The translations under genes and the position numbers were made by a program. Positions 5,524-39,621 of a DNA stretch of 43,814 nt are shown here, in pieces. This DNA comes from a virus: positions 1 to 43,814 of IMG/VR virus record IMGVR_UViG_3300023229_000029. One strand, given 5' to 3'. Below the pieces are notes generated by a model, which worked only from the letters and a program-made list of their open reading frames with translations, had not been told where the DNA came from and searched no databases. How positions within the stretch are numbered: the stretch's first letter is position 1; each line of letters begins with the position of its first letter.

Positions 5524-6255
5524 ATGGCAGATTTACAAGGTTGGGGTAGAGGCACCTGGAGTTCAGGTTCTTGGGGAGAATTTATCCCTGTCGAAGTTAC
5601 AGGTAATCAAGTCAATACCTCTTTAGCAGACGTATCTGTTTCCGTAGGAACAGGAGTTATTGTTTCTGCAACAGGACTTCCAATTAATTCAACTTTAGCA
5701 GGCGTATCTGTTTCCGTAGGAATAGAAGTTAATCCAAATCCTGTTGTAATCAATACAAGTCTAGGGTCAGTAGACATAGAGATTAGTTCAGTTATTGAAC
5801 CAGCCGCTGTTACATTAACTACTACTTTAGATAATGTTACTGTTATTGAAGGAACAGGAATTATTGTCTCTGCAACAGGACTTCCAATTAATTCAACTTT
5901 AGATAATGTCACTGTTTCCGTAGGAACAGGAGTTATTGTTAATCCAAATCCTGTTGTAATCAATACAAGTCTAGGGTCAGTAGACATAGAGATTAGTTCA
6001 GTTATTGAACCAGCCGCTGTTACATTAACTACTACTTTAGATAATGTCACTGTTTCCGTAGGAACAGGAGTTATTGTCTCTGCAACAGGGATAGGTATGA
6101 CCTTTAGTGAGGCTTCTATATCTCCTACTGGTGATGCTTTAGTTTTCCCAACTTCATTAACTATGACCTTATCCTTAGCTAATATATATTCAACTCCATG
6201 GGCTAATGTAGTCACAAATGCAAATAATACTTGGACAGGGGTAGACGCAGCTTAG
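5524..6255 (+). CDS. Repeat-rich fibre-like structural protein
   Basis: A 243-residue protein. The N-terminus carries a Trp/Gly motif (GWGRGTWSSGSWGE, residues 6-19). Most of the rest is internal repeats of Val/Thr/Ser strands (SVSVGTGVIV, LPINSTL, NTSLGSVDIEISSVIEP). This is typical of an elongated beta-structured fibre. An AGGAGG ribosome binding site lies upstream. A similar Trp/Gly motif occurs in the gp10-like protein at 13187. The DNA repeats behind it could vary in number by recombination. Confidence 0.7.
   Translation: MADLQGWGRGTWSSGSWGEFIPVEVTGNQVNTSLADVSVSVGTGVIVSATGLPINSTLAGVSVSVGIEVNPNPVVINTSLGSVDIEISSVIEPAAVTLTTTLDNVTVIEGTGIIVSATGLPINSTLDNVTVSVGTGVIVNPNPVVINTSLGSVDIEISSVIEPAAVTLTTTLDNVTVSVGTGVIVSATGIGMTFSEASISPTGDALVFPTSLTMTLSLANIYSTPWANVVTNANNTWTGVDAA
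5728..6047 (+). repeat. 210-bp period direct repeat in fibre-like gene
   Basis: The 110 bases 5728-5837 recur without a mismatch at 5938-6047, a spacing of 210 bases. Shorter related blocks (the SATGLPINSTL coding segment near 5660 and again near 5865) lie around it. The reading frame is preserved because the period is a multiple of three. Near-identity at DNA level, not only protein level, implies recent duplication or ongoing homogenisation. Confidence 0.85.
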
Positions 6256-6256
6256 T

Positions 6257-7744
6257 TTGTCTAAAATTTTAGTAGGACTGTATATATGTAGACATGACGC
6301 AAACATGTGTACATTTGATGGAAAAAATTTCAAATATCTACAATTAGAAAGATATTTTAATATTAAGCATTATTCTAATCCTAATCTTTTTGAATGGCAA
6401 AAAATTTTAAAGGATGTCTTTCATTATGATACATCTGATGTAAAAGCCATAGGCATATCGTTAAATAATAATTATAATGGAAACTATTATCAAAATCAAA
6501 ACGATGTTGTCGAACAAAAAAATATTTTTAATTTAGACGTACCTACCTTCAATGTTGATCATCATTACGCACATGCCTTATCTTCTTTAAGCAATACTAA
6601 AAATCATTTTGTATCTGACTGTCAAGGTAACTATAGAAGATGGATGTCTGTATTAGATGATAAAAAAATTATTGACACAAAACATGATCCAATGAACGGT
6701 AAATCATTTGGTCTTGCCTTAGATGAGATGGGATTTTTTATGGGAGTTGGGCCTGCTTATCATTTTGATAATGCAGGAAAAATAATGGCTTTTAATGGAT
6801 ATGGTGAAATTAATAATACTTATTTAGATTTTATGAATAAGTATGGATTAGAGCATTCTCAAATAACACTTGAATACAATAACTTAGAGAATGTTTTAAA
6901 TAAATTTTTGACTCCAAAAGATACATGGGATTTTGTCAAAACTTTTCATCATAGGTACTCTATATTATTTGAAGAATATTTAAAAAAATTTTTTAAAGAA
7001 AAAGATTCTTTTACTTACTCAGGAGGAGTAATGCAGAACATTGTTATTAATACTAAATTAAGAGAAAAGTTTTCAAATATTGAAATTAATCCTATAGGAT
7101 ATGATGGAGGATTATCAATAGGAGCTCTCGAAGCAGTAAGACAAATATATGATTATCCTAAAATTAAAATATCCAATTATCCTTTTATTCAAGAAGATGA
7201 GTGTCCTGAAGAACCTACACAAGACACAATAAATAAAACTGCTGAGTTGTTGGCTCAAGGTAAAGTTATAATGTGGTATCAAGGTAAAGGAGAAGCTGGT
7301 CCAAGAGCTTTAGGTAATAGATCAATATTAGTAAATCCAAATGTTAAATATGCCAAAGAAATGGTTAATGAAAAAGTAAAAAAGAGAGAGTGGTATAGAC
7401 CATACGGAGCTAGTGTAAAATTAGATAAATATAAAGATTATTTTAAATTAGATTGGGAGAGTCCATACATGCTATATCAGGCTCAATGTCTTGATCCTTT
7501 TAATTTGCAATCAATTACTCATGCAGATGGCACTTGTAGAATACAGACGGTCTCATCTACTAATAAAATATTTTATAGTTTATTGGACAGTTTTGACAAA
7601 ATTACAGGTTTTCCAATACTATTAAACACTTCTATGAATTTGCCTGGATATCCAATAACAGGGAGTTTTAATACTACAAAAAAAATGTTTGACAATTCGC
7701 AAGCTGATATATTAATCATAGGTAATGAAATACTTAAAAAGTAG
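6257..7744 (+). CDS. NodU-type carbamoyltransferase
   Basis: A 495-residue member of the NodU/CmcH/TobZ carbamoyltransferase family. The N-terminal Kae1-like domain carries the early ICRHDANMC motif, the HHYAH metal-binding motif (H102, H106) and D121. The C-terminal YrdC-like domain carries the hallmark GEAGPRALGNRSIL. The family moves carbamoyl from carbamoyl phosphate through carbamoyl-adenylate to a hydroxyl of a sugar or small molecule. The start is TTG at 6257, two bases after the previous stop; the next ATG would delete the conserved HDA motif. It lies between two fibre-type genes, suggesting a late role in modifying a surface glycan or virion component. Confidence 0.9.
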   Translation: MSKILVGLYICRHDANMCTFDGKNFKYLQLERYFNIKHYSNPNLFEWQKILKDVFHYDTSDVKAIGISLNNNYNGNYYQNQNDVVEQKNIFNLDVPTFNVDHHYAHALSSLSNTKNHFVSDCQGNYRRWMSVLDDKKIIDTKHDPMNGKSFGLALDEMGFFMGVGPAYHFDNAGKIMAFNGYGEINNTYLDFMNKYGLEHSQITLEYNNLENVLNKFLTPKDTWDFVKTFHHRYSILFEEYLKKFFKEKDSFTYSGGVMQNIVINTKLREKFSNIEINPIGYDGGLSIGALEAVRQIYDYPKIKISNYPFIQEDECPEEPTQDTINKTAELLAQGKVIMWYQGKGEAGPRALGNRSILVNPNVKYAKEMVNEKVKKREWYRPYGASVKLDKYKDYFKLDWESPYMLYQAQCLDPFNLQSITHADGTCRIQTVSSTNKIFYSLLDSFDKITGFPILLNTSMNLPGYPITGSFNTTKKMFDNSQADILIIGNEILKK

Positions 7745-7791: not shown

Positions 7792-9111
7792 ATGGCATCA
7801 ACATATTCAGATAGACTTAAATTAGAGATTATGTCCACAGGCGCAAACGCCAGTACATGGGGCACTAATACAAATAATAATTTAGATGTAATTGACGCTT
7901 TTATGTCAGGCTATCTTTCAAAGTCAGTTGCGGGTTCTTCTAACATTACTCTTACAACTGCTAATGCCTCAGATACAGCAGAATCATCTAATAGAACAAT
8001 ACGATTAACAGGTGCTTTAACAGGAAACATTGTTGTATTTATTCCCGCAGTAGAAAGTAAATATTCTTTTTTTAACAACACAACAGGTTCATGGACTTTA
8101 ACAATTGCAGCAACAGGACACACAGCAAATGGTATTGTCATTGCTCAGAGTGCAAAAACCACAGTATTTTGTGATGGCGCATCAAATTACAATGTAGAAA
8201 TTCTTTCTTCTACAGATGCAGGAGCCTTAGCCTCAGGAACTTTAGCTGACGCAAGATTTCCTGCAACATTACCTGCAGTCAGTGGAGCAAATTTAACAAA
8301 TTTAGACGCATCAAATTTAGCCTCAGGAACTTTAGCTGACGCAAGATTTCCTGCAACATTACCTGCAGTCAGTGGAGCAAATTTAACAAATTTAGACGCA
8401 TCAAATTTAGCCTCAGGAACATTAAGTAATGATCGTCTTGATACTGTACCTACAACTAAAGGTGGAACAGGACTAACAAGTCTTGGTTCTGCGGGACAAA
8501 TTATTCAAGTAAACGCACCAGGTGCAGCACTTGAGTATGCTGATGCAGGAGGCGGAGCAATTGGTAATGTTACAACAGCTACACAATTGACAAGTTCAGG
8601 TACTATTACAACTAGAGCAGATACTTTATTTGCTATCGGAATTGCAGTTGGTGGAGGCGGGTCAGGTGGCTGTGGTGGACACGGATTTGGTCAAGGCCAA
8701 GGACAACCAGGTGCAACAACTACAGGTTTAGGTTTGACAGGTGCAGGTGGAACACAAGGTGCAGCAGGGTATCCAAATCCAGGATCTAATGGCGGAGCCG
8801 GAGGAGCGGGGGGCGGAATGCTCGGTGGTGCAGCAGGCGGAACTGGCACTCCAGGAAAATTAGGTTCAGGAGGAGCAGGTGGTACAAATCCTTTTGGCTT
8901 AGGAAGTGGCGGACAGGGGTCTCCAGGAAGTGGTGAACATGGCGCAGGCGGAGGAGCAGGCGGAGCCTTTAGCGATATCACAGGACCTTTCACAAGAGGT
9001 GGTACACTTTCAGTGACAGTAGGAGCAGGCGGTATTGGTAGACCAGGTGGTAGAGGTACAGGTCAGTCTGGTGCAGCAGGAATGTTTAGATATTCGGAGT
9101 ATTATACATAA
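7792..9111 (+). CDS. Tail fibre with glycine-rich C-terminal tip
   Basis: A 439-residue tail-fibre protein. The N-terminus (TYSDRLKLEIMSTGANASTW) is typical of marine phage fibres that attach to the tail. Two identical 30-residue repeats (ASGTLADARFPATLPAVSGA type) form a shaft. From about residue 285 the protein becomes extremely Gly-rich, resembling adhesin tips built from polyglycine helices. This part contains X-Pro-Gly triplets (QPG, NPG, TPG, SPG, RPG). A GAGG ribosome binding site lies upstream and the tail chaperone gene follows at a TAATG overlap. Host recognition is the likely role. Confidence 0.85.
   Translation: MASTYSDRLKLEIMSTGANASTWGTNTNNNLDVIDAFMSGYLSKSVAGSSNITLTTANASDTAESSNRTIRLTGALTGNIVVFIPAVESKYSFFNNTTGSWTLTIAATGHTANGIVIAQSAKTTVFCDGASNYNVEILSSTDAGALASGTLADARFPATLPAVSGANLTNLDASNLASGTLADARFPATLPAVSGANLTNLDASNLASGTLSNDRLDTVPTTKGGTGLTSLGSAGQIIQVNAPGAALEYADAGGGAIGNVTTATQLTSSGTITTRADTLFAIGIAVGGGGSGGCGGHGFGQGQGQPGATTTGLGLTGAGGTQGAAGYPNPGSNGGAGGAGGGMLGGAAGGTGTPGKLGSGGAGGTNPFGLGSGGQGSPGSGEHGAGGGAGGAFSDITGPFTRGGTLSVTVGAGGIGRPGGRGTGQSGAAGMFRYSEYYT
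8227..8420 (+). repeat. 90-bp perfect tandem repeat in tail-fibre gene
   Basis: Two complete copies (8227-8316, 8317-8406) and the first 14 bases of a third are identical in DNA. The unit encodes 30 residues of the fibre shaft, so copy-number change keeps the frame and alters shaft length. Exact identity argues for recent duplication. Confidence 0.9.
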
Positions 9112-9458
9112 TGGCTAAGTGGTATAAGATCAATGATATTAAGGTAGTAGAAGTTTCTGATACCTCAGTAATAGGTTGGTATGAAACATCGAACGACAAT
9201 GTCGTACAGGGTTGGTGGTTTCAAAATGGTGATGTCGCTGATTCATATACTTACGGTATTGATGCTTTAAGAGAAGCTAGAGATTTAGCATTAACATCTT
9301 CTGATTGGACACAATTACCTAACTCACCTTTAACAGATTCAAAGAAAGCAGAATGGGCTACATATAGGCAGGAACTAAGAGATTTTCCTGCAAGTCACAC
9401 AACATTTACTGTAACCTTGGATGGCACAGACACAGTGTGGCCTGTTCAACCTTCCTAG
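9111..9458 (+). CDS. Tail fibre assembly chaperone (Phage_tail_APC-like)
   Basis: A 115-residue protein with a small beta-rich N-terminal part (Trp-rich GWYETSNDNVVQGWWFQNG). The diagnostic C-terminal motif follows: SDWTQLPNSPLTDSKKAEW, then YRQELRDFP. That motif is what I know as the phage tail assembly chaperone family (Pfam Phage_tail_APC). Such proteins help fold or trimerise the fibre encoded just upstream, and the two genes are coupled by a TAATG overlap. Confidence 0.85.
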   Translation: MAKWYKINDIKVVEVSDTSVIGWYETSNDNVVQGWWFQNGDVADSYTYGIDALREARDLALTSSDWTQLPNSPLTDSKKAEWATYRQELRDFPASHTTFTVTLDGTDTVWPVQPS

Positions 9459-10066
9459 TGTTTTTAAAAAATAATTATTGGTTTTATGATAAAGCACTTA
9501 ATCCAAAAGTGTGTCAGCAAATAATTAATTATGGTAATTCTTTAAAAGAAAACGCAGGTGTTACATCTGATACAAGTGAAGGCACTGAGGAAGATAAAAA
9601 CAAATTAGCTCAAATCAGAGAATCTAGAATAGCTTGGATTCCACAACTAAGATGGCTTAATATTTGGTTTTGGGATTTTGCTATGAACGCAAATAAATCT
9701 GCGAATTGGGATTTTGATGTTAATATGTCTGAACAATATCAATTTACAAAATATAGAAAAGGTCATTTTTATGGTTGGCATCAAGATTGTGGACCTGATA
9801 ATGTTGGAGATGGTTTACAAAGAAAACTATCTTTAGTTTGCACATTAACTAATCCTTCTGAGTATGAAGGAGGACAACTAGAAATATGTGATCCACAAAT
9901 GTCTCCTATCAGAAAGTTAGAAGATAAAATACATAGTGAAGAACAATGGTTCAATCAAGGAACAGTAATTATTTTTCCTAGTCATATGTGGCATCAAGTA
10001 AAAAAAGTTACTCAAGGTACTAGATATTCTTTAGTGACATGGTTTAGAGGAAAGGAATTTGAATGA
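9458..10066 (+). CDS. 2OG-Fe(II) oxygenase, prolyl-4-hydroxylase type (1)
   Basis: A 202-residue Fe(II)/2-oxoglutarate oxygenase. The metal triad is H108-x-D110 (in YGWHQDCG) and H179; R189 would bind 2-oxoglutarate. The strand after the triad (TNPSEYEGGQLEI) matches the P4Hc/PKHD type. I start it at GTG 9458, which overlaps the previous stop as TAGTG; an upstream in-frame GTG at 9437 would add seven residues inside the chaperone gene. It is the first of ten such enzymes and sits directly behind the tail fibre and its chaperone. Family role: hydroxylation of Pro or other protein residues; substrate unknown. Confidence 0.88.
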   Translation: MFLKNNYWFYDKALNPKVCQQIINYGNSLKENAGVTSDTSEGTEEDKNKLAQIRESRIAWIPQLRWLNIWFWDFAMNANKSANWDFDVNMSEQYQFTKYRKGHFYGWHQDCGPDNVGDGLQRKLSLVCTLTNPSEYEGGQLEICDPQMSPIRKLEDKIHSEEQWFNQGTVIIFPSHMWHQVKKVTQGTRYSLVTWFRGKEFE

Positions 10067-10716
10067 CAACATTTGAACAAGAAAATTACGTTATAATAAA
10101 AAAAGCTATTAGCGAAGAGATAGCTAGTTTTGTGAATGAATATTTTAATATGAAAATGAAGGTTACAGCAAAACTTTTTGAAGCAAATATGATTTCTCCT
10201 TTTGAAGAAAACTATGGAGTATTTGATGACCATCAAGTTCCTGGTGCTTTTTCTTCTTATTCAGATATAGCTATGGAAGTTTTACTTAATGCCTTACATC
10301 CTTTAATGGAAAAAGAAACAGGTATTAAATTAATATCTAATAATTCTTATGCACGTGTATATTTAAAAGGTCAAAAATTACCAAGACATAAAGACAGATT
10401 TGCATGTGAAATATCTACTACCCTTAATTTGGGAGGAGATCCATGGCCTATTTTTTTGGAGCCTGATGATAAAAAAGGTATAGAAGAAAATGGAAAATAC
10501 ATATCTGAAAATAGTAAGGGTCTTAAAGTAGATTTAGGTCCTGGTGACATGTTAATATATAAAGGAAATTTACTCGAACATTGGAGAGAACCTTTAGAGG
10601 GAGACAGATGTACACAAGTATTTCTTCATTATAACAGAGCTGATCATAAAGAGCCGCCATTTGATGGAAGAGAATTTTTAGGTTTACCAAGTTGTTTCGT
10701 ATTAGGCAAAAAATAA
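10063..10716 (+). CDS. 2OG-Fe(II) oxygenase (2)
   Basis: A 217-residue Fe(II)/2OG oxygenase. H109-x-D111 (LPRHKDRF) and H173 form the metal site and R182 is the likely cosubstrate ligand (HWREPLEGDR). PGDMLIYKG before the distal His is typical of the double-stranded beta-helix. It starts in an ATGA overlap with oxygenase 1, so both are made together. It shares little sequence with its neighbour beyond the fold, arguing against simple tandem duplication. Substrate unknown. Confidence 0.87.
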   Translation: MTTFEQENYVIIKKAISEEIASFVNEYFNMKMKVTAKLFEANMISPFEENYGVFDDHQVPGAFSSYSDIAMEVLLNALHPLMEKETGIKLISNNSYARVYLKGQKLPRHKDRFACEISTTLNLGGDPWPIFLEPDDKKGIEENGKYISENSKGLKVDLGPGDMLIYKGNLLEHWREPLEGDRCTQVFLHYNRADHKEPPFDGREFLGLPSCFVLGKK

Positions 10717-10774
10717 AGTTTTACAGTAAACACTTTTCTTTATTAGAAAAACAATATATGGAGTAAAAAAGAAT

Positions 10775-11596
10775 ATGATTAAACCTGAAGAAATAAAAGA
10801 TAAGAATTTTAAGTTATTTTTAGGAATGCCTATGTATGGAGGAATGTTATCTGAAACTACATTACATGGTTTATTGGATTTACAACAATGGTCGTTGTCA
10901 AAACAAAAAAATGTTGAAATGAGAATACAGACCATGGGTAATGAAAGTTTAATAACTAGAGCAAGAAACACGATTGTGTCAATGATGATGGATGCTCAAG
11001 ATTATGTTGCGACTCATTTACTTTTTATAGATGCAGACATTGGTTTTAGTTGGCAAAACGTTGAAAGATTAATTTGCGCTGATAAAGACATTGCCTGTGG
11101 AGTATATCCTAGAAAACATTTACATTTAGAAAAAGCTAATAAATATATTCAAGAAAATCCTGATATATCTCCTGATGAATTAGAGGCTAGAATATTAGGA
11201 TATAATATTAACTTTGATAACCCTAAAGAATTAAAAGGAGAAAATGGATTTTTCAAAGTACAAGAAGCCGCTACAGGAATGATGTTAATTAAAAGAGAGG
11301 TTTTAAGAAAAATGATGAAAGCTTACCCTGAAAGAAAATATGAATCTGATCAAATTGTCAATGGTGGCTACTATAAATCAGATAATTGTTACGATTTGTT
11401 TGCAGTTGGTCCTTATGAAACTTTGGATCAAAAAAGATATTTATCAGAGGATTATTACTTTTCAAGATTGTGGCAACAACTTGGTGGAGAAATTTGGGCA
11501 GATTTAGCAAGTCCATTAACTCATTTTGGAAACAGAGCATTCAAGGGACATGTAGGTACTTTAGTAACAAAAGTAGATGATTCAAATAATAGATAA
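10775..11596 (+). CDS. GT-A fold glycosyltransferase
   Basis: A 273-residue glycosyltransferase-like protein with nucleotide-sugar/metal motif D86-A-D88 (LLFIDADIGF), an ESLITRARN segment near residues 57-65 and an acidic catalytic-type SEDYYFSR near the end. GT2-like phage proteins of this kind are known from marine viruses. A GGAG ribosome binding site precedes the ATG after a 58-base gap, and the gene lies between oxygenases 2 and 3. It may glycosylate a hydroxyl made by a neighbouring hydroxylase, or a surface glycan. Confidence 0.8.
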   Translation: MIKPEEIKDKNFKLFLGMPMYGGMLSETTLHGLLDLQQWSLSKQKNVEMRIQTMGNESLITRARNTIVSMMMDAQDYVATHLLFIDADIGFSWQNVERLICADKDIACGVYPRKHLHLEKANKYIQENPDISPDELEARILGYNINFDNPKELKGENGFFKVQEAATGMMLIKREVLRKMMKAYPERKYESDQIVNGGYYKSDNCYDLFAVGPYETLDQKRYLSEDYYFSRLWQQLGGEIWADLASPLTHFGNRAFKGHVGTLVTKVDDSNNR

Positions 11597-12086
11597 TTTT
11601 TTTAGTATATATAGTAGAGACTACTATTTATTTGCGAAACAGCTTACGTTTCATGAGTCATTAAATTATAAAAATCTTATGGGATTTGATGACAAGCATG
11701 TAGATTTTCCAGGACGCAGAACTTTACAACTTAGCACAGAGTCACCTTTCTTTTATTTAAATATTGTAAATAATGTTTATGATAGGTTTGGTATAAAATT
11801 AGACGATACAGCAGGAGTATATTGTCATGTTAGATTTGAAAATGATAGAGATGATTGGATACACACCGATAAAGGAAAAACAATATTGGTATTTTTATCT
11901 GAAACAAATTTAGACTCTGGAACATGTTTTTTTGATAATAATGATAATCTTACTGATAACATTAGTTTTATACATAATAGAGCTGTAATGTTTGATGGTA
12001 ATATAAAACACATGTCAAAAAAAAATTATGGTTCAACAATAGAAGATGGCAGGATGACTATTAACATATTTATTGAAAATGCTTAA
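11577..12086 (+). CDS. 2OG-Fe(II) oxygenase (3)
   Basis: A 169-residue Fe(II)/2OG oxygenase. H96-x-D98 (DWIHTDKGK) and H145 form the metal site and R159 is the cosubstrate Arg. It starts inside the glycosyltransferase gene (20-base overlap) and its end overlaps oxygenase 4. Compact length and the motif SETNLDSGTCFF between the two halves suit a small P4H-like hydroxylase. Substrate unknown. Confidence 0.85.
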   Translation: MIQIIDNFFSIYSRDYYLFAKQLTFHESLNYKNLMGFDDKHVDFPGRRTLQLSTESPFFYLNIVNNVYDRFGIKLDDTAGVYCHVRFENDRDDWIHTDKGKTILVFLSETNLDSGTCFFDNNDNLTDNISFIHNRAVMFDGNIKHMSKKNYGSTIEDGRMTINIFIENA

Positions 12087-12618
12087 ATCTGTAAAAGAAG
12101 GGTCTATATTATTAAAGCCTCAATTTCTACCTTTAGAGGTTTATAATTCCACTCTTGATATATTTAACAACAATAAATTTTACGCAACATATCAGCCTTC
12201 GGAAATATTCTATGGTAATAGATTACAGGCTTATCCTTGTCATCAGTATATATTAAGAGAAGATGAAAATAAAATATTTACAGATCTTATGTGTCAATTA
12301 TTAGAGACTCCTATAGAACTTTTTACCATTGCAAGAAAAATTATAACCACAGAGATACAACAGTCAAAGTGCAATACAAAATATGGCTACATACATCAGG
12401 ACTCTCATTGTGATCTAGCGGCTGTATTACCTTTTGATCAAACAGTAGACGGAGGAACAGCTTTCTTTGAGAATATTTGGGATAAGTATCCCGATATAAC
12501 AGTAGGTGCATATCCTAACAGGCTTATTGTATACAACTCACAAAGACCTCACTCGCCTTCACATGATTTTACATTTGCAGAAAGAAAGGTTTTAGCCTTT
12601 ATGATAAAGTTGAAATGA
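12079..12618 (+). CDS. 2OG-Fe(II) oxygenase, DUF6445-like (4)
   Basis: A 179-residue protein with H106-x-D108 (YIHQDSHCD), DGGTAFF, distal H158 (QRPHSPS) and R169: a complete Fe(II)/2OG site. The layout reminds me of DUF6445, a 2OG oxygenase-like family. I use ATG 12079, which overlaps the previous stop by eight bases; an in-frame TTG at 12073 would add two residues. It is coupled to oxygenase 5 by ATGA. Substrate unknown. Confidence 0.8.
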   Translation: MLKSVKEGSILLKPQFLPLEVYNSTLDIFNNNKFYATYQPSEIFYGNRLQAYPCHQYILREDENKIFTDLMCQLLETPIELFTIARKIITTEIQQSKCNTKYGYIHQDSHCDLAAVLPFDQTVDGGTAFFENIWDKYPDITVGAYPNRLIVYNSQRPHSPSHDFTFAERKVLAFMIKLK

Positions 12619-13166
12619 AACTAGAAGTAATACAGTTTTCAATTCATAGTTTATATTCTGTCTATATTGTAAGAGATTATTTATCTCAAGAAGAGTTGCA
12701 CAAGCTTGATAAGGCTCTCAGAGATAAAACAGAAATAGATGAGATGAATAAATCTACTAATGTAAAAGGTAATATGACTTCTTATTCTGCTCTACAAGAT
12801 GTACAAGAATGCACAGATTTGATTGGTAAGGCAATCTTTACCATTGATTCAATAGTTAAACTAAGGAGCTCTCATGGAAGAGATAATTTTCTATATCGTG
12901 TTACTGATGCTTGGGGAATGAGACACAACACTAATGACTATTCTATAAATCATGCTCATTATCCTTCTCATTGGTCTGCTGCTTTTTATACTACTGTGCC
13001 TGATCCTAAGCCATTTATGAAGCTTATTGAGTTTAATAATAAAATAGAATTGGATAGTAATATGTTAATTATATTTCCTGCTATGGTTAATCACGAGGTA
13101 TCTATTAATGAATCTGATAAAGAAAGAATATCAATGGCTTTTAATATTGATGTGGAAAAACAGTAA
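12615..13166 (+). CDS. 2OG-Fe(II) oxygenase, HxH (TIGR02466-like) type (5)
   Basis: A 183-residue protein. After AWGMRHNTND comes H113-A-H115 (INHAHYPSHWS), distal H160 (MVNHEV) and R171. This is the HxH form of the fold seen in the TIGR02466/2OG-FeII_Oxy_5 group rather than the usual HxD. It ends the second oxygenase run, 20 bases before the gp10-like tail gene. It starts with ATGA on oxygenase 4. Whether the second His binds iron cannot be told from sequence. Confidence 0.78.
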   Translation: MKLEVIQFSIHSLYSVYIVRDYLSQEELHKLDKALRDKTEIDEMNKSTNVKGNMTSYSALQDVQECTDLIGKAIFTIDSIVKLRSSHGRDNFLYRVTDAWGMRHNTNDYSINHAHYPSHWSAAFYTTVPDPKPFMKLIEFNNKIELDSNMLIIFPAMVNHEVSINESDKERISMAFNIDVEKQ

Positions 13167-13186
13167 AACTGTAGTATATTATAGAA

Positions 13187-15010
13187 ATGTCCTTAGTAAA
13201 TTTTAGACCAGATCCAGGTATTAATAAAGAAATCACCGATTACACAGGTGCAAATAAGTGGACTGACGGTGATATGGTTAGATTTTTCCAAGGATTACCA
13301 CAAAAAATAAAAGGTTGGGAAAAATTTATATCTACAACCCTTGTAGGAGTGGCAAGAGATCAGCACGCTTGGGTGGCATTAGATGGCACAAGATATAACG
13401 CCATAGGCACAGACAGAAAATTATACGTAATAGAAGAGGGTACTGCATTTGACATTACTCCTTTAAGAAGAACACAAGCTCGTACAAATCCTTTTACCAC
13501 TAATGCCACTACTTCAGTTGTTGTTACTGATACAGCACATGATGCTCATCAAGGTGATTTTGTTACTTTTGATAGTTTTAGTGCAATAGATGATTTAGAT
13601 ATGAACAAAGAGTTTGAAGTAACTTCTATTGTAAACACTTCCGCATATGTCGTAACTCATACAAGTACCGCTTCAGGATCTACCGCTTCGGGCGGAGGCA
13701 CGGGCAATATGAAGTATCAAATAAACATTGGTCCTTCTCTGTCAACTTCAGCTTACGGTTGGGGTACAGATACCTGGGGAGCAGGTACATGGGGCACACC
13801 TTCAACCTCATCAAACGTAACATTAGAAGCTAGACAATGGTCATTAGATAATTTTGGTGAAGATTTAATAGCAACTGTTTTAAATGGTGGTGCTTTTAAA
13901 TGGGACACATCAGTAGGTGTATCAACAAGAGCATCTCAAATTACTAACACTCCCACAGCTTCAAGGCTAAGTTTGATATCTACTCCTGATAGACATTTAA
14001 TATTTATGGGTACTCAATCGACAATAGGTTCAGAGCCACAAGATGATTTATTAATAAGATTCTCTAGTCAAGAAGATATAGAAACTTATCAACCAACGGC
14101 TGAGAATACAGCTGGATCACTAAGAGTTGCTGACGGATCGCGAATCGTGGGAGCAACAAGATCAAGAGGTCAGATACTTGTATGGACCGATACTTCTTTG
14201 CACTCTCTACAATTTATAGGTCCACCATTTACTTTTGGTCTAAGACAATTAGGTCAATCCTGTGGTATTATAGGACAACACGCTGCTATAGATATTAATG
14301 GTAATTCTTATTGGATGTCTCAAAGTTCTTTTTATGCTTTCGATGGTACTGTTAAAAAACTACCTTGCACTGTAGAACAGTTTGTTTTTAATAATATAAA
14401 TCAAACAGGAGCAGAAAATGCTTTTGCAGGACATAACGGTGAATTCAATGAAATATTATGGTTTTACCCTAGAACAGGATCAGATCAAATAAACGCTATT
14501 GTAGCTTATAATTATTTAGAGGGAACTTGGTGGACAGGAACATTAGCTCGATCAACGTGGATTGATAGAGAAGTTTATGATATCCCTATAGCTACTGAAT
14601 TTTTTCCTTCAGCAATAGCTAACAACGAAGTTATTCTCGGACTAACAGCAGGATCTAGTCAAGCATTTATACATGAGACAGGAAATGATGCTGATGGAGC
14701 AGCAATTACAGCTTATGTAAAGTCAGGTGTAGTAGAATTAGGGACAGGGGATGAGTTTTCATTTGTATCAAAATTAATTCCTGATATACAAAATCAAGAA
14801 GGAGTTTTGAACGCAAAGTTAGAGTTTAAAAATTATCCAAATAATAGTATAAGTGTCACAAAAACTGCTAGCTTTACTGATAGCACAGAGTTTGTTAGTT
14901 TAAGAGGCAGAGGAAGAGAGTTTACTGTTAATCTTGTGTCTAACACTACAGGCACATCTTGGAGGGCGGGTACTCAAAGATTTGATATACAACCTGATGG
15001 CAGAAGATAA
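13187..15010 (+). CDS. P22 gp10-like tail hub/DNA stabilisation protein
   Basis: A 607-residue protein with a start (VNFRPDPGINKEITDYTGAN) and overall beta-propeller-like repeats (TPDRHLIFMG, LVWTDTSLHSLQF, YWMSQSSFYAFDG) that I recognise from P22 gp10-type head-completion/tail proteins of marine podoviruses. It would plug the neck and link the adaptor to the tail tip. A Trp/Gly motif (GWGTDTWGAGTWGT) lies at residues 191-204. It is a structural gene lodged between two runs of oxygenase genes. Confidence 0.82.
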   Translation: MSLVNFRPDPGINKEITDYTGANKWTDGDMVRFFQGLPQKIKGWEKFISTTLVGVARDQHAWVALDGTRYNAIGTDRKLYVIEEGTAFDITPLRRTQARTNPFTTNATTSVVVTDTAHDAHQGDFVTFDSFSAIDDLDMNKEFEVTSIVNTSAYVVTHTSTASGSTASGGGTGNMKYQINIGPSLSTSAYGWGTDTWGAGTWGTPSTSSNVTLEARQWSLDNFGEDLIATVLNGGAFKWDTSVGVSTRASQITNTPTASRLSLISTPDRHLIFMGTQSTIGSEPQDDLLIRFSSQEDIETYQPTAENTAGSLRVADGSRIVGATRSRGQILVWTDTSLHSLQFIGPPFTFGLRQLGQSCGIIGQHAAIDINGNSYWMSQSSFYAFDGTVKKLPCTVEQFVFNNINQTGAENAFAGHNGEFNEILWFYPRTGSDQINAIVAYNYLEGTWWTGTLARSTWIDREVYDIPIATEFFPSAIANNEVILGLTAGSSQAFIHETGNDADGAAITAYVKSGVVELGTGDEFSFVSKLIPDIQNQEGVLNAKLEFKNYPNNSISVTKTASFTDSTEFVSLRGRGREFTVNLVSNTTGTSWRAGTQRFDIQPDGRR

Positions 15011-15177
15011 TGGCTAAATTAGTTTTACAAAGATTTCCTGATCCAAGACCTGAGTATGATGCTCAACAGTCTTCTGAACTTATTAGACAATTAGAGGAAA
15101 TGATACAACAATTAAACACACAGTACACTCAGGATACTCAAGAAGAGAGTACAAGAAGAACTTGGTTCTTAGGATAA
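15010..15177 (+). CDS. Small conserved coiled-coil virion-module protein
   Basis: A 55-residue ORF starting MAKLVLQRFPDPRPEYD, with a helical Gln/Glu-rich middle and ending RRTWFLG. Its ATG shares a base with the gp10-like stop (TAATG) and it ends three bases before the next start. I remember very similar small proteins after gp10-like genes in marine phages. Function unknown; a short coiled coil joining tail parts is plausible. Confidence 0.65.
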   Translation: MAKLVLQRFPDPRPEYDAQQSSELIRQLEEMIQQLNTQYTQDTQEESTRRTWFLG

Positions 15178-15180
15178 GAT

Positions 15181-15534
15181 ATGGCAGACGTATTTAGAAG
15201 ATTTACACAAACAGCACCTAACACAGCGGTCAATACACTTTTTACAGTTCCTACTCCTGATCTTGCAGCGACTCCTCCTGTTCCTGTTTCAACTTTTATT
15301 GTGAAAACTATTATTCTACATAACTCCGCTGGTTCAGGAACCGTTAATGTAAAATTAACACATAATGATGGCGCGGTAGATGTAGAGATAAATAATATAG
15401 ATGTAGCTCACGGAACTACTCAACAACTTAATGGCCCTTATGTTTATGCTGCTGGAGACGCTTTAAAACTTCAAGCCGATGCAACAACTCTTAGTTCAGA
15501 TGTTTCTATATTGGAGATTAAGCAACAACTATAA
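15181..15534 (+). CDS. Probable small virion structural protein
   Basis: A 117-residue all-beta-looking protein starting MADVFRRFTQTAPNTAVNTL, with strands such as STFIVKTIILHNS and TVNVKLTH. It resembles small fibre-base or decoration proteins in marine phages (from memory, no named family). It is coupled by TAATG to oxygenase 6, showing that structural and oxygenase genes share one transcript. Confidence 0.65.
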   Translation: MADVFRRFTQTAPNTAVNTLFTVPTPDLAATPPVPVSTFIVKTIILHNSAGSGTVNVKLTHNDGAVDVEINNIDVAHGTTQQLNGPYVYAAGDALKLQADATTLSSDVSILEIKQQL

Positions 15535-16028
15535 TGAGATTAATACAAGATGGGATGTTGAATAAAGAAGCCTGTGACGCATTAATTAATCTCTATCAAA
15601 ACAACAGGCCACTAACTAAATTGTGGCACAGCACAAATACACTAAATTTAGCGCAAGTAGAAAATCAATACGATCAATTAGCAAAAAAAATAATATTTGG
15701 TATGACAACTTTTTTAAGCACAAAAGGAGCTGTAGTTTATCCTGAACTTTGTCAGGTAGTTCACAGATCTGAAGGTACTTCACACGGTTTACACGTAGAT
15801 GATGCAAGAACTTCAACTGTAATGACCTCTATAACATACCTTAATGAGGACTATAAAGGTGGAGAAACATTTTTTGAAGACGATTTTGCAGTTCCACCTA
15901 AGTTAGGTAGATCCTTGTTCTTTGATGGAAGAGCTTTTAGGCACGGTGTAAATGAAATCAAAGGCAACAGATTCACATTAGCCATATGGTACGCATCAAA
16001 CGTGAACGATTTTTATGGAATTAGTTAA
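15534..16028 (+). CDS. 2OG-Fe(II) oxygenase, prolyl-4-hydroxylase type (6)
   Basis: A 164-residue, textbook small P4H-type oxygenase: H87-x-D89 (GLHVDDAR), the LNEDYKGGETFF strand, distal H137 (FRHGVNEI) and R146. It opens the third and longest oxygenase run. It starts at TAATG on a structural gene and its end overlaps the degenerate cupin by 14 bases. Substrate unknown; protein Pro or Asn/Asp hydroxylation is the family norm. Confidence 0.88.
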   Translation: MRLIQDGMLNKEACDALINLYQNNRPLTKLWHSTNTLNLAQVENQYDQLAKKIIFGMTTFLSTKGAVVYPELCQVVHRSEGTSHGLHVDDARTSTVMTSITYLNEDYKGGETFFEDDFAVPPKLGRSLFFDGRAFRHGVNEIKGNRFTLAIWYASNVNDFYGIS

Positions 16029-16680
16029 ACCTCCGCTCCCTAAAGAAATAGAAAGAAGAATTGCGGAGAAACAGATTCTTAGTTATGAGTTTGTTACCTA
16101 TCTACAAGATCTTATGAAGAGCATTATTAAGAATGAGGATATTGTTATATATCAATTTTCCAAACTTGCAAAATACAGAGTTTTAAAAATAAAAGAAACA
16201 GACATATTAGAAAAAGTAGCAGATAGATATAGATGGCCTAGAGAGTATGAGAAAAAACAACCTTCAATTGAAGTCGTAACATTGGGTGGCAAAGTAGTAG
16301 AAAGTGATTTTAAAGAAGACAACTTTGCTGATGCTTTTGAAAATATTTGCAGGTATCTCGCAGGAGAAGAACTGATATTGCATCGATGTCAAACTTTAAC
16401 AAAAAATTTAACATATACTTGTAGTCTTTTTTCATCAATACTAGGTAGAAATTTAAATTTTAGCGGACATATGAGATTGGGCAGTAAACCAATAAAATCA
16501 ATAAGTTTTTCTTATGATTACCATATTATAATAAAAAATGCTTATGGGCTTTTAAAATGTAGTTTAAATGGTAAGATAAAAATACTCAAAAAAGAAGGAG
16601 CTATTTTTGTTCGCAAAGGTACAAAAATTAAAATACAAGAAATTAAAGAACCAACGTTTTACATAATTTATCATTTATGA
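16015..16680 (+). CDS. Cupin-like protein lacking metal ligands
   Basis: A 221-residue protein with no HxD motif. Its last 100 residues line up by eye with the JmjC/Cupin_4 protein at 20233: the ILHRCQTLTKN, YHIIIKNAYG and EGAIFVRKG segments match FIQDCSRINKR, LIIQVEGK and PGDCVFVPLG. In this alignment the first metal His becomes S166 (D168 is kept) and the distal His becomes Ile. It therefore looks like a catalytically dead paralogue, perhaps a partner or binding subunit. That is my inference; the match needs a profile search. It is coupled by overlaps on both sides. Confidence 0.6.
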   Translation: MELVKPPLPKEIERRIAEKQILSYEFVTYLQDLMKSIIKNEDIVIYQFSKLAKYRVLKIKETDILEKVADRYRWPREYEKKQPSIEVVTLGGKVVESDFKEDNFADAFENICRYLAGEELILHRCQTLTKNLTYTCSLFSSILGRNLNFSGHMRLGSKPIKSISFSYDYHIIIKNAYGLLKCSLNGKIKILKKEGAIFVRKGTKIKIQEIKEPTFYIIYHL

Positions 16681-17195
16681 ATATTTTTAGAGCACAAATA
16701 AAAAAAGACATTATAGATCTTTCTTTGAGCACAATACAAGATATGAAAAAGTCTATGAACGAAGTAAGTTGGAACTGCGATATACGAACATCATTCAACC
16801 TTACCGACAACATATTAAATATTAAAGAATTATGGCCATTAAAATTTTCTATTCTTGAAAGCATACATGCGTACATGTTGAACAATAATAAGTTTTTTGA
16901 AGGATATATAAAAAAGTCTTGGGTCAATATATATGAAAAAGGTTTTTATCAAGAGTTTCATAATCATAAAGATGAAATTGTAAAATATATTTGTGGTGTG
17001 GTTTATTTTACACCTATGTCAAGTTCAATAGAGTTTGGCATTGAAGAGAGGATTGAGCACAAACCTGAAGTTGGTGACATTTTAATTTTTAATGACGATC
17101 AATTACATAGAGTTTTACCTCACAAAGATAGTGATTTAAGAATAAGTTTAGCTTTTAATTATCAAAAAATAGACACATGGAAAGGACTTAAATGA
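16677..17195 (+). CDS. 2OG-Fe(II) oxygenase, HxH type (7)
   Basis: A 172-residue protein of the TIGR02466-like group: SWVNIYEKGFYQEF, then H95-N-H97, distal H144 (DDQLHRVLPH) and R155 (LRISLAF). The HxH is shared with oxygenases 5 and 10. It starts in an ATGA overlap with the degenerate cupin and ends in an ATGA overlap with the halogenase, so it could supply or process a product of that enzyme. Substrate unknown. Confidence 0.82.
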   Translation: MNIFRAQIKKDIIDLSLSTIQDMKKSMNEVSWNCDIRTSFNLTDNILNIKELWPLKFSILESIHAYMLNNNKFFEGYIKKSWVNIYEKGFYQEFHNHKDEIVKYICGVVYFTPMSSSIEFGIEERIEHKPEVGDILIFNDDQLHRVLPHKDSDLRISLAFNYQKIDTWKGLK

Positions 17196-18676
17196 AGATT
17201 TGTATACTAGGGGGAGGTACAGCAGGTTTTATGACTGCAGCGACATTAGTTAAATTATTTCCACAACATGAGATAAAACTTATAGAGTCTCCTCAAGAAA
17301 AAACTGTTGGTGTCGGTGAGAGTACAATATTAGGTTTTAGGTCATGGCTTAAACTTTTAGATATCAAAGATGAAGACTTTATGAGAGATTGTAATGCTAT
17401 TTACAAACTAAGCATAAAGTTCACTGATTTTTATAAAAAAGGTGAGAGCTTTCATTATCCATTCGGAGAAATTAAATATCCTTTAGATGATTGGTGGTTA
17501 TGTAAAACAGCAGACTCTGATTTACCTATTGATACCTATGCTTCTTATAATTATGAGGCCATGACTCAAATAGAGTCAGGACTAATGCACGAGCACGCTG
17601 ATTTTAAAAAAGAAACTGCTTATCATTTCGATGCAAAGCTTTTTGCCGATTGGCTTAAAAAAAAATATTGCATACCTAAAGGGTTAAAATATATCTCGGA
17701 GCATATCAAAGATATTGAACAAGATGATAATGGAATAAAATCACTGAATGGAAAACATGAAGCCGATCTTTACATAGACTGTACAGGTTTTAAATCTATA
17801 TTACTTGGAGAAACTCTTAAAGAACCTTTTGAATCTTATGAAGATTTATTGCCAAATAATTCAGCTTGGGCAACTAAAATACCTTACAAAGATAAAGATA
17901 AAGAATTAGTGCCGTACACAAATTGCACTGCTCATAATAATGGATGGATATGGAATATACCTTTGTGGAATAGAATTGGTACAGGTTATGTTTATTCAGA
18001 TAAATTTACTAGTGATGAAGATGCATTGTCAGATTTTAAAAATTATCTAGGAAAAAAAGATTTGGAGTTTAATAAAATAAAAATGAGAGTGGGAATACAT
18101 AGAAGACTGTTTGTAAAAAATGTATGCGCTGTTGGTTTATCTGCTGGTTTTATCGAACCTTTAGAAAGTAACGGTTTATACACTGTTCATCAGTTTTTAA
18201 TTACTTTAGTTAGACAGATGCAAAGAGAAAAGATAAGTCAATGGGATAAAGACAACTATACATTTGGTTGTAAAAAAATATTTAAACCATTTGCAGACTT
18301 TGTAGCTCTTCATTACGCTTTATCACATAGAACTGACACACCTTATTGGAAAGCAAATTTTAATAAAACTTGGGATGAAAAATTGTATACATTACAGCCT
18401 ACGTCAGTTTACACCTTATTAAATCACGCATTTTTAAGAGATGAAAATTTTTCTTTTGACACACAAGGAGGAGCACATTGTATAGCGACAGGTATGAATT
18501 GGAAACCTAATGATGAAAATATGATAAAATTACAGGACATTACAATGAAAGATATAAAAGAAAGGGCTGAAGAAATAATGAAACAATTAAAGGAAAGAAA
18601 GGAAAAATGGAAAAAAGAATGTAATGAAGAAGGTGTTTCATTTCATGATTTTCATAAACATAATGTTTATTACTAA
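17192..18676 (+). CDS. Flavin-dependent (tryptophan-type) halogenase
   Basis: A 494-residue flavin-dependent halogenase. It has an N-terminal FAD-binding GGGTAG (7-12), VGVGEST (39-45) and K72 aligned with the catalytic lysine of PrnA/RebH (CNAIYKLSIKF). The halogenase signature W-x-W-x-I-P lies at 252-257, and F-x-x-P-x-x-S-x-G at 320-328 (FIEPLESNG). All diagnostic residues are present, so it is probably active. The family uses FADH2, O2 and chloride or bromide to halogenate Trp or other aromatics; a reductase partner is not visible here. The C-terminus is a charged helix. It is coupled by ATGA to oxygenase 7 and overlaps oxygenase 8. Substrate unknown: free Trp, a peptide or protein Trp/Tyr are options. 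Confidence 0.9.
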   Translation: MKICILGGGTAGFMTAATLVKLFPQHEIKLIESPQEKTVGVGESTILGFRSWLKLLDIKDEDFMRDCNAIYKLSIKFTDFYKKGESFHYPFGEIKYPLDDWWLCKTADSDLPIDTYASYNYEAMTQIESGLMHEHADFKKETAYHFDAKLFADWLKKKYCIPKGLKYISEHIKDIEQDDNGIKSLNGKHEADLYIDCTGFKSILLGETLKEPFESYEDLLPNNSAWATKIPYKDKDKELVPYTNCTAHNNGWIWNIPLWNRIGTGYVYSDKFTSDEDALSDFKNYLGKKDLEFNKIKMRVGIHRRLFVKNVCAVGLSAGFIEPLESNGLYTVHQFLITLVRQMQREKISQWDKDNYTFGCKKIFKPFADFVALHYALSHRTDTPYWKANFNKTWDEKLYTLQPTSVYTLLNHAFLRDENFSFDTQGGAHCIATGMNWKPNDENMIKLQDITMKDIKERAEEIMKQLKERKEKWKKECNEEGVSFHDFHKHNVYY

Positions 18677-19196
18677 CGAAAATTTTTTATCAAAAGACAG
18701 TATTAATTTTATTGAAAAAACTGTGTTGAGTAGTTCTTTTCCTTACTTTTATAATGCACATACAATACATGATCCACCAGACAACAACGCTTATATGGGT
18801 CATGATGTACTTAGAAGACCAGAAGAAAGAGCACCAGGGGAAAGCTTTAATTCTACTTATGGCTCACAGTTTCTTAAAATGTTAAAAGATTTTTCGGATA
18901 CAACAGACATAAAAATAAACGATGTATTTAGAATATCAGTTAATATTACTTTTGCGGGTCTGACCGATAATTGTCCCATTCACACTGATCATTCATATCC
19001 ACATCATCAACTTCTAATATATTTAAATGACTGTGATTTAAACTCTAACACAATTGTTTTGTCAGAAGATAGAGCTGAGATAGTGCATTCAATAAAACCA
19101 AAAAAATATAAAGGAGTTTGCTTTAGTTCTGCCCCTCACTATATGGTCTTTCCAAAAAAAGGGTCTAGAATAGTAGCAGTTTTTACATTTGCATGA
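18663..19196 (+). CDS. 2OG-Fe(II) oxygenase (8)
   Basis: A 177-residue Fe(II)/2OG oxygenase with H107-x-D109 (CPIHTDHSYPHHQ), a hydrophobic LLIYLND strand, distal H159 (APHYMV) and R169. I use ATG 18663 (14-base overlap with the halogenase); in-frame ATGs at 18645 and 18624 would lengthen it by 6 or 13 residues, and an AGAAGG sits 11 bases before 18645. It lies directly behind the halogenase. Substrate unknown. Confidence 0.82.
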   Translation: MFITNENFLSKDSINFIEKTVLSSSFPYFYNAHTIHDPPDNNAYMGHDVLRRPEERAPGESFNSTYGSQFLKMLKDFSDTTDIKINDVFRISVNITFAGLTDNCPIHTDHSYPHHQLLIYLNDCDLNSNTIVLSEDRAEIVHSIKPKKYKGVCFSSAPHYMVFPKKGSRIVAVFTFA

Positions 19197-19666
19197 ATAA
19201 ATTTGTAGACAATGTTTGGTATCAAGATAATTTCTATGATCGTGATCAATTAATAGAAATAAATAAACAAATTAAAGAAGGTAATTGGCAGTATAAAGGA
19301 AGCTCTGGCACGGTTGGTGAAGACAATAAATTTTGGTATCAACCTCTAACCGAAAAACAAACAGATTTTTTTAAAGTAATTACTAATAATAAAATAATAA
19401 GGTCTTATGCAAATGGTCAAACTATGACACAACACAGTGGTTTTCATGCGGATGATGGTGATATGACTTATCTTATATATACAGATGAGTGGGACTTGGA
19501 TGATGGCGGAGGCACTGAGTTTCTTCTTGATAATAATACCACTTGTAGTATTTATCCTAAATTTAATAGAGTCGTAAAGTTCAAAGCTAACATATCACAC
19601 AGAGCTTTACCTAATATTAAACAAAACTCATTTAGAATGTCAGTAGCATTAAAAACTCATGAGTGA
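19193..19666 (+). CDS. 2OG-Fe(II) oxygenase, prolyl-4-hydroxylase type (9)
   Basis: A 157-residue small P4H-type oxygenase: H85-x-D87 (GFHADDGD), DDGGGTEF, distal H136 (ISHRALPN) and R148 (FRMSVALK). It starts in an ATGA overlap with oxygenase 8 and ends within the start of oxygenase 10. With the full triad it should be active. Substrate unknown. Confidence 0.87.
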   Translation: MNKFVDNVWYQDNFYDRDQLIEINKQIKEGNWQYKGSSGTVGEDNKFWYQPLTEKQTDFFKVITNNKIIRSYANGQTMTQHSGFHADDGDMTYLIYTDEWDLDDGGGTEFLLDNNTTCSIYPKFNRVVKFKANISHRALPNIKQNSFRMSVALKTHE

Positions 19667-20261
19667 AGTTATTAGTATATTTCCTACAGCTATTAGCGTA
19701 CATGATATTGATGTTAATTTTTCTGATGAAGATAAAAAATTTATAAATTTATGTTTAAATGATCAATACGAAAACACAGGCAACACTACTTCATATGATA
19801 CTTATGTCTTAGAAAAGCTACCAATCTTAAAAGAAAAATTAACGAATAAAATTAATTTTCATTTTTATGAAACTTTAAAACATGTCAAAGAAAGTGAAAT
19901 ATATATTACACAATCTTGGTTAAATCTTACAAAGAAGGATCAATTTCATCATACACATAAACATCCAAACTCTATACTAGCAGGTGTTTTTTATCTACAA
20001 ACTGTTGAAGATGATTGCATATCTTTTGACAATTCTTTAAGAGTGGATCAGGTAAGACCATCAATAGAGTCATTTAATTCTTATAACTCTAGTTTGTATA
20101 ATTTACCTGTACGTAAAAATATGCTAGTAATATTTCCCTCAAGTTTAATGCATAATGTTCCCACAGTAAAAACTGATCAAGTTAGGATAAGTTTAGCATT
20201 TAATACCTTTGTGAAAGGAGTACTAGGTAAAGATGATCAACTTTCAAGAGTCAATTTGTAA
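19659..20261 (+). CDS. 2OG-Fe(II) oxygenase, HxH (TIGR02466-like) type (10)
   Basis: A 200-residue protein starting with the usual group opening (ISIFPTAISVHDI). It then has SWLNLTKKDQF, H100-x-H102 followed by P103, LAGVFYLQ, distal H165 (SLMHNV) and R176 (VRISLAF). It is the clearest TIGR02466/2OG-FeII_Oxy_5 member of the three HxH proteins. It overlaps oxygenase 9 by eight bases and the Cupin_4-like gene by 29. Substrate unknown. Confidence 0.84.
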   Translation: MSEVISIFPTAISVHDIDVNFSDEDKKFINLCLNDQYENTGNTTSYDTYVLEKLPILKEKLTNKINFHFYETLKHVKESEIYITQSWLNLTKKDQFHHTHKHPNSILAGVFYLQTVEDDCISFDNSLRVDQVRPSIESFNSYNSSLYNLPVRKNMLVIFPSSLMHNVPTVKTDQVRISLAFNTFVKGVLGKDDQLSRVNL

Positions 20262-20841
20262 ACAGGCAGCTGAATTAAAACCTTTTGCCTATAAAAATAA
20301 GATTAACGATATTTTTTCATGGCAAGAATTGGCAGCCTTATTAAATACACCTTTAAACACAGATAGGTTTCATGCTACAGGTGTTGAGTGTAGACCAGTA
20401 AATATTGCTAATGAATGGCAGTCAGTTCCTAACGTTATTGCTCCAAAAGACATATATAATTATGCAAGAAATAATGTTTGTTTTATTCAAGACTGTAGTA
20501 GAATCAATAAAAGAATAAATAAAATTTCTCATGATTTAGAGTGGGCTACGGGTTATTCATGTGATGCACATATCTTTTTTTCTGTTTTAGACAATGAGAA
20601 GGACACTGATGGCTTTGGTATGCATAAGGACGTATGTCACAACTTAATCATACAAGTTGAGGGTAAAACTAATTTTACCGTGAAAGATGAGTTTGAAATA
20701 GTATTGGAACCAGGAGATTGTGTTTTTGTTCCACTTGGAGTGTATCATCAAGCTAAATCTATAGAAAAAAGACTCTCAGTCAGTTTTCCAATGAATCCTG
20801 CTCACAAGACAAAACAAGACAGATTTTGGATTGATTTCTAG
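20233..20841 (+). CDS. JmjC/Cupin_4 (RoxA-like) oxygenase
   Basis: A 202-residue protein with the Cupin_4 pattern: GFGMH131-K-D133, LIIQVEGK, PGDCVFVPLGVYH172. This is the layout of bacterial ribosomal oxygenases such as RoxA (YcfD), which hydroxylate a ribosomal protein, and of other JmjC-type enzymes. It is much shorter than RoxA and lacks an obvious winged-helix domain. It closes the enzyme island, overlapping oxygenase 10 by 29 bases. Target could be a virion or host protein; unknown. Confidence 0.78.
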   Translation: MINFQESICKQAAELKPFAYKNKINDIFSWQELAALLNTPLNTDRFHATGVECRPVNIANEWQSVPNVIAPKDIYNYARNNVCFIQDCSRINKRINKISHDLEWATGYSCDAHIFFSVLDNEKDTDGFGMHKDVCHNLIIQVEGKTNFTVKDEFEIVLEPGDCVFVPLGVYHQAKSIEKRLSVSFPMNPAHKTKQDRFWIDF

Positions 20842-39463: not shown

Positions 39464-39621
39464 GTGATGTATATAAGTTCGTTAAAGAAGATGAATTTAA
39501 AAATGCTTTAAAAGATTTAATTAATTATTGCAAACATGATACTTGCATTAATTTAGGACAATCTGTGAAAATAGTAGAAGAATATCTACAAGGAAAAGAA
39601 ATAGAAAAGGAGAAATTATGA
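39451..39621 (+). CDS. Small helical protein (56 residues)
   Basis: A 56-residue ORF starting inside the helicase end (13-base overlap) and ending in an ATGA overlap with the methyltransferase. MADLSDVYKFVKEDEFKNAL, then YCKHDTCINLG and a charged helix. Coupling on both sides supports it. Two Cys; no recognised family. Confidence 0.62.
   Translation: MADLSDVYKFVKEDEFKNALKDLINYCKHDTCINLGQSVKIVEEYLQGKEIEKEKL

Follow-up and report, generated by a model that had tools for sequence, protein, structure and literature searches.

We analysed a 43,814-base stretch of viral DNA, IMG/VR record IMGVR_UViG_3300023229_000029 (hereafter the window), in which positions 9458-20841 hold, on one strand, an island of ten 2-oxoglutarate (2OG)-type oxygenase genes, one JmjC/cupin gene, a halogenase, a probable glycosyltransferase, a gene for a 221-residue protein and a small protein. 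The reading that we favour, at a probability of roughly 0.4, is that this island is a late cassette for protein modification whose target is the receptor-binding tips of the phage itself. This reading draws on the position of the island among virion genes, on its recurrence beside fibre tips across phage groups, on the protein-hydroxylase relatives of its oxygenases, on the relation of its halogenase to VirX1, whose active site is large and open (PMC8407142), and on possible capping enzymes nearby. An earlier note made from the sequence alone had proposed a late virion- or surface-modification pathway; that proposal is consistent with where the island sits in the operon and with its recurrence next to glycine-rich tips, while the positional statistics are confounded by ancestry and the substrate is one that we infer.

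Composition and integrity of the island

Pfam calls were counted when above the curated cut-off and active sites were read from family alignments. The genes of the island, with their best supporting matches, are as follows.

9458..10066 (+): ox1, 2OG oxygenase; PF13640 3.6e-18; H108, D110, H179 and R189 in 100% of 124 homologues; PKHD-type hydroxylases in PDB
10063..10716 (+): ox2, 2OG-fold oxygenase ('ferrochelatase' family of the literature); phrog_2954 4.9e-44; H109, D111 and H173 conserved
10775..11596 (+): probable GT-A-type glycosyltransferase; phrog_34859 glycosyltransferase 2e-5; STIV A197 profile match 0.0039; conserved FIDADI
11577..12086 (+): ox3, 2OG-type oxygenase; phrog_274 4.7e-10; H96, D98, H145 and R159 conserved
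12079..12618 (+): ox4, 2OG-type oxygenase (start 12073 or 12079); phrog_1644 4.5e-7, phrog_274 1.7e-6; H106, D108 and H158 conserved
12615..13166 (+): ox5, 2OG oxygenase, HxH type; PF13759 4.7e-13; H113, H115, H160
13187..15010 (+): virion tail/stabilisation protein dividing the island; phrog_3287 6.5e-87; 40-46% identity to HTVC023P and DSL-LC04
15181..15534 (+): small protein without Pfam or PHROG match
15534..16028 (+): ox6, 2OG oxygenase; PF13640 1.6e-9; H87, D89, H137, R146
16015..16680 (+): 221-residue protein coupled to ox6 and ox7; phrog_29157 1.5e-10 (no function label); dN/dS 0.16
16677..17195 (+): ox7, 2OG oxygenase, HxH type; PF13759 9.4e-10; H95, H97, H144, R155
17192..18676 (+): flavin-dependent halogenase, VirX1-like; PF04820 6.4e-103; VirX1 (6qgm) 1.5e-100
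18624..19196 (+): ox8, 2OG-type oxygenase (start 18624 or 18663); phrog_274 6.1e-28; HxD...H...R in alignment
19193..19666 (+): ox9, 2OG oxygenase; PF13640 4.5e-7; H85, D87, H136, R148
19659..20261 (+): ox10, 2OG oxygenase, HxH type; PF13759 1.7e-19; H100, H102, H165 and R176 in at least 94% of 48 homologues
20233..20841 (+): JmjC/cupin oxygenase; PF08007 1.5e-8, PF13621 3.1e-8; H131, D133, H172; phrog_8014, common to Syn10

All eleven oxygenase genes listed in the earlier note are present at the positions it gave, two of them with ambiguous starts. Profile search, which that note had named as the place where its assignment could fail, puts seven of the eleven directly into Pfam families: 9458, 15534 and 19193 in PF13640, 12615, 16677 and 19659 in PF13759, and 20233 in JmjC_2 and Cupin_8, both above the cut-off. 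The genes at 10063, 11577, 12079 and 18663 have no Pfam family above cut-off; the last three match phrog_274, as do 15534 and 19193, which are Pfam-positive. By profile or fold, ten genes thus belong to the 2OG-Fe(II) oxygenase superfamily (six by Pfam, three through phrog_274 and ox2 by its fold), and iron- and 2OG-dependent activity is predicted for them. Metal ligands are conserved in all eleven genes, as HxD...H in seven, as an HxH...H variant in the three PF13759 genes and as HxD...H in the JmjC gene, which is the distribution first read from the letters; in 19659 it is H100-x-H102 that is conserved, shifted by one step from the first HTH. The PHROG names 'DNA endonuclease V' and 'minor coat protein' were dropped because Pfam-positive oxygenases match the same or related PHROGs. 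The island oxygenases align with one another only across short, weakly similar stretches, and recent tandem duplication was therefore ruled out.

The gene at 17192..18676 is by family a flavin-dependent halogenase, as had been claimed, and halogenating activity is predicted. Its best PDB match is VirX1, its GxGxxG, WxWxIP, YK and EPLES segments align, and the catalytic Lys and Glu segments align to those of VirX1 and tryptophan halogenases (motif definitions from PMC8407142). A scan based on the halogenase gathered 48 contigs, 41 of which carry at least one 2OG gene and eight of which carry eight or more. The literature searched, coverage of which is incomplete, yielded no halogenase from an HTVC023P-type phage, and its occurrence in this lineage has apparently not been published before. 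A second halogenase setting was seen in eight contigs (L026, L027, L031, L033, L034 and L042-L044) with few or zero oxygenases, and several of these halogenases adjoin recombination-nuclease-like genes, an arrangement also present in cyanophage S-B64, which hints that they have a role of their own. A gene beside the island family in L019 (7623-8399), L023 and L025, which begins FFLLAMPRSGNTLFSS, is sulfotransferase-like by eye and matches a PHROG without a function label.

The translationally coupled junctions described earlier are largely as claimed: successive genes overlap by 1 to 53 nucleotides, except for 58 nucleotides before the glycosyltransferase gene and the surroundings of 13187-15010 and 15181-15534. 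Membership of the run also stands for the genes then named, with the 221-residue gene omitted from that list. The large tail protein at 13187-15010 divides the island into two halves, both with a GC fraction of 0.30-0.31 vs 0.35-0.37 in adjoining structural genes. No terminator-like sites were found on the + strand within the run, and a promoter scan gave a site count no higher than in shuffles. The search of marine viral contigs for the same gene order, suggested as a check, recovered it in L006-L009, each from a separate metagenome, which rules out an assembly artefact. Against L007, the oxygenase, halogenase and glycosyltransferase genes have ratios of nonsynonymous to synonymous substitution rates (dN/dS) of 0.05-0.24 and the 221-residue gene one of 0.16, so that all are under purifying selection; in the same comparison these genes are 71-95% identical vs 35-64% for the virion proteins directly downstream. 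The conserved order in separate metagenomes and these low dN/dS values together exclude both chance and assembly error. For the 221-residue protein, an AlphaFold model from a shallow alignment reached a predicted local distance difference test score (pLDDT) of 32, and a distant profile match occurs in HTVC008M (L496 45576).

By shared replication and tail genes and their order, the window phage is a divergent relative of HTVC023P-type pelagiphages. Its tail protein is 46% identical to that of the lake phage DSL-LC04, which is equally close by this protein, and 40% identical to that of Pelagibacter phage HTVC023P; its DNA polymerase is 50-53% identical to those of DSL-LC04, HTVC023P and 023Pt_psg01, and the order of fibre, oxygenases and tail protein is common to the window and HTVC023P-type phages. 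With the HTVC023P-type lineage, identities are 40-44% for the tail protein and 52-53% for the polymerase. The record carries no estimate of completeness and related genomes are about 60 kb, so the contig is probably a fragment.

The 'ferrochelatase' family as a 2OG oxygenase fold

The second oxygenase, ox2 (10063), matches phrog_2954, which is labelled 'ferrochelatase', and HTVC023P gp67, annotated as 'putative ferrochelatase', belongs to the same family. Papers on pelagiphages and cyanophages take genes so annotated as ferrochelatases (PMC9599517; PMC3037559). We rejected this identity because an AlphaFold2 model built from 19 phage homologues (pLDDT 86.9, predicted TM-score 0.84) has 2OG oxygenases as its top Foldseek neighbours in PDB, with one of the 50 listed deposited as uncharacterised, and because no Pfam ferrochelatase match was obtained for ox2. 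Prolyl hydroxylases from Dictyostelium and Pseudomonas putida head these neighbours (E about 3e-8), and the model is also close to natural-product 2OG enzymes such as SnoN and OkaE. H109, D111 and H173 are kept in 99-100% of 137 homologues. These fold neighbours, the conserved His/Asp/His set and the missing Pfam ferrochelatase match indicate that the family is one more oxygenase, so that the published 'ferrochelatase' partner of the oxygenases in HTVC023P-type phages (PMC9599517) is, by its modelled structure, itself of the 2OG-oxygenase fold, which is a new point.

Glycine-rich fibre tips as candidate substrates

Upstream of the island, a fibre gene with a glycine-rich tip is followed by a fibre chaperone and then by ox1.

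6257..7744 (+): carbamoyltransferase of NodU/TobZ type, upstream of the island and possibly a capping enzyme; PF16861 5.8e-51; phrog_1601 2.8e-133; PDB carbamoyltransferases
7792..9111 (+): tail fibre whose C-terminal tip is glycine-rich (candidate substrate); 31 Gly among 60 residues in its most glycine-rich part; phrog_31104
9111..9458 (+): tail fibre assembly chaperone; PF16778 Phage_tail_APC 5.8e-17

In the scheme that we infer, from catalytic activity and late timing to the substrate, the order of reactions, the effect on binding and every chemical step, the divergent 2OG/Fe(II) oxygenases would hydroxylate the side chains of proteins or oxidise them further, the VirX1-like halogenase would add halogen to aromatic residues with reduced flavin supplied by the host, and the carbamoyltransferase and glycosyltransferase would cap hydroxyls. 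The likeliest substrate would be the phage's own glycine-rich tail-fibre tip, encoded immediately upstream on the same strand, and its modification may adjust how receptors are bound or how stable the tip is. Among solved relatives of named activity, the nearest include prolyl and PKHD-type hydroxylases, with small-molecule 2OG enzymes also close for ox2, and the carbamoyltransferase family occurs near the halogenase in 11 other contigs.

Islands often adjoin glycine-rich fibre tips in pelagiphages and cyanophages, which is also a new point: an island lies beside a glycine-rich tip gene in HTVC023P, 023Pt_psg01, HTVC008M, S-RIM44, Sf-CH11 and Syn10. In a census of the lineage after 80% clustering, oxygenases were present in 14 of 18 loci with a glycine-rich tip vs 6 of 31 without (p=9e-5). 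Contigs found solely by the tip motif TPPVSPPQGNP, a conserved proline-rich loop in the glycine-rich tips of marine phage contigs L361-L477, have a downstream oxygenase in 67 of 71 cases (27 of 30 clusters). For a second tip type, GYDKGGGEQGG, a 2OG gene lay downstream in none of ten, a weak control given three independent clusters and oxygenases elsewhere in 8 of 18 contigs. Where loci have at least two 2OG genes, about half of their 139 tips contain the pattern P[PS][EQ]GN, vs 0 of 19 tips where loci have none; this contrast serves only as a lead, because tip subtype and ancestry are confounded.

Several observations weigh against the proposal that the island modifies fibre tips. Our attempt at an ancestry-free proof by independent phylogenetic pairs kept the direction of the association but was not significant (12 to 5, p=0.14; 5 to 2, p=0.45), so that shared ancestry may explain the correlation of tips with oxygenases, and the p-values of the association are exploratory because the idea arose mid-analysis. 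Most of the motif contigs appear to be one lineage, most of those reaching far enough carry that lineage's tail protein, and the window's own tip is without the TPPVSPPQGNP motif. Some halogenases are located apart from fibre genes, and HTVC027P has three oxygenases and zero glycine-rich open reading frames (ORFs). A whole-genome check of two T4-like phages gave a mixed result for P-SSM7, in which oxygenases also occur in replication regions, and an opposing one for Melnitz, which has glycine-rich tips without an island.

Alternatively, the island may remodel the host surface, altering lipopolysaccharide (LPS), capsule or outer-membrane proteins for superinfection exclusion or release, with the tail genes adjoining it as part of a host-interaction region. 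Pelagimyophage host-recognition clusters do mix tail fibres and glycosyltransferases, and such a role has been proposed there (PMC7029224), while the glycosyltransferase and carbamoyltransferase families act on sugars too. Late co-transcription with virion genes would however be unnecessary for such remodelling, no set of LPS-synthesis genes stood out among those window genes that were scanned by profile (the scope of all partner-enzyme negatives given here), and we regard this explanation as unlikely. It is less probable again that, in the infected cell, the island produces or changes some small molecule that is halogenated and oxidised, as might be suggested by the resemblance of ox2 to SnoN and OkaE and by VirX1, which accepts many small aromatic substrates (PMC8407142); no non-ribosomal peptide synthetase, polyketide synthase or precursor of a ribosomally synthesised and post-translationally modified peptide was recognised, although the window is probably a fragment and such genes could lie elsewhere.

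DNA modification or repair, in which the oxygenases would oxidise bases before carbamoylation or glycosylation, has a precedent in cyanophages, where oxygenases often lie between uvsY and uvsW and DNA repair has been proposed (PMC9146016; PMC3037559), and the ox2 profile has a weak, non-significant Tet-like match (E=0.068). We consider it improbable, since no island protein matches TET/JBP families above cut-off as a DNA-hypermodification system would, no base-hypermodification enzyme was recognised, and the island contains a halogenase and is placed among tail genes. Nor is the methyltransferase at 39618-40250 clearly a DNA enzyme: its top PHROG is DNA methyltransferase, whereas Pfam gives Methyltransf_24 with a TylF-like hint, and it may not act on DNA. 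A drain on 2OG, lowering the host pool or feeding succinate so as to shift nitrogen signalling or energy supply, has been suggested for cyanophages (PMC3037559) and is very improbable here, as it would need neither eleven divergent, individually conserved enzymes nor a halogenase, and the idea depends on NtcA, a cyanobacterial regulator, whereas the window phage's closest cultured relatives infect Pelagibacter. Some other explanation altogether has a small chance of being correct.

The 2OG oxygenases of marine phages are widespread, unexplained and usually filed under metabolic or DNA-repair genes. The link to the fibre region and the reassignment of the 'ferrochelatase' family yield a testable question, namely whether marine phage adhesins are hydroxylated or halogenated. 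If fibre tips are indeed modified, phage-host binding could depend on how much iron, oxygen, halide and 2-oxoglutarate the infected cell supplies, and there would be a concrete candidate substrate for VirX1-like viral halogenases. More tentatively, several groups of marine tailed phages might use variable cassettes of oxygenases, halogenases, glycosyltransferases and carbamoyltransferases to diversify glycine-rich tips post-translationally, as a chemical counterpart of sequence-based tropism switching.

Further upstream, a near-identical hairpin, CTGTTTCCGTAGGAACAG, occurs in three copies (5635-5654, 5912-5929 and 6050-6067) within ORF 5524-6255 and is repeat-like.

Comparison with known systems

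Like the window tip, the receptor-binding tips of S16 gp38-type polyglycine-rich adhesins are rich in glycine, and no chemical modification of those tips was reported in the literature searched. The tips of HTVC023P and Sf-CH11 match PF21722 Gly_rich_2; the window tip differs from Gly_rich_2 adhesins in having no such match at E up to 0.01.

Among related phages, HTVC023P and 023Pt_psg01 share with the window the ox1 and ox2 families and the placement of oxygenases between fibre genes and tail protein. HTVC023P differs in having about 4-5 oxygenases and no halogenase, and HTVC023P-type phages have been described with co-located 2OG-Fe(II) oxygenase and 'ferrochelatase' genes and without a halogenase (PMC9599517). 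Between their fibre and neck genes, and next to glycine-rich genes, Sf-CH11 and S-RIM44 carry oxygenases, one or more halogenases and a member of the ox2 family, but they are myoviruses with fewer oxygenases. Cyanophage Syn10 is the source of the iodinating halogenase VirX1. Like Syn9, it has glycine-rich genes in the fibre region followed by a halogenase and an oxygenase run of the same PHROGs, the JmjC family among them, and its halogenase is about 41% identical to that of the window. Syn10 and Syn9 differ in being T4-like myoviruses with two tandem halogenases and a different gene order; in Syn10, two halogenases accompany about ten oxygenases of the same families, mostly annotated as hypothetical.

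The earlier note had called the number of oxygenases together with a halogenase exceptional, a judgement that is right only in part. Among the 58 loci of the lineage that extend at least 6 kb upstream of the tail protein, the oxygenases in that upstream part number 0 to 10 per locus, with zero in 31. Against the judgement stand the 12 oxygenases of sister contigs L007-L009, the Syn10 set, and S-SCSM1, which has 24 2OG oxygenases in one genome (PMC9602691); 10-11 are found in L030, L035, L112 and L156. S-SCSM1 resembles the window in having very many PF13640 and PF13759 oxygenases that share little identity with one another and differs in their number and in that a halogenase goes unmentioned (PMC9602691). 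The window is an extreme of a known kind, with an oxygenase number at the top of the sample and not unprecedented.

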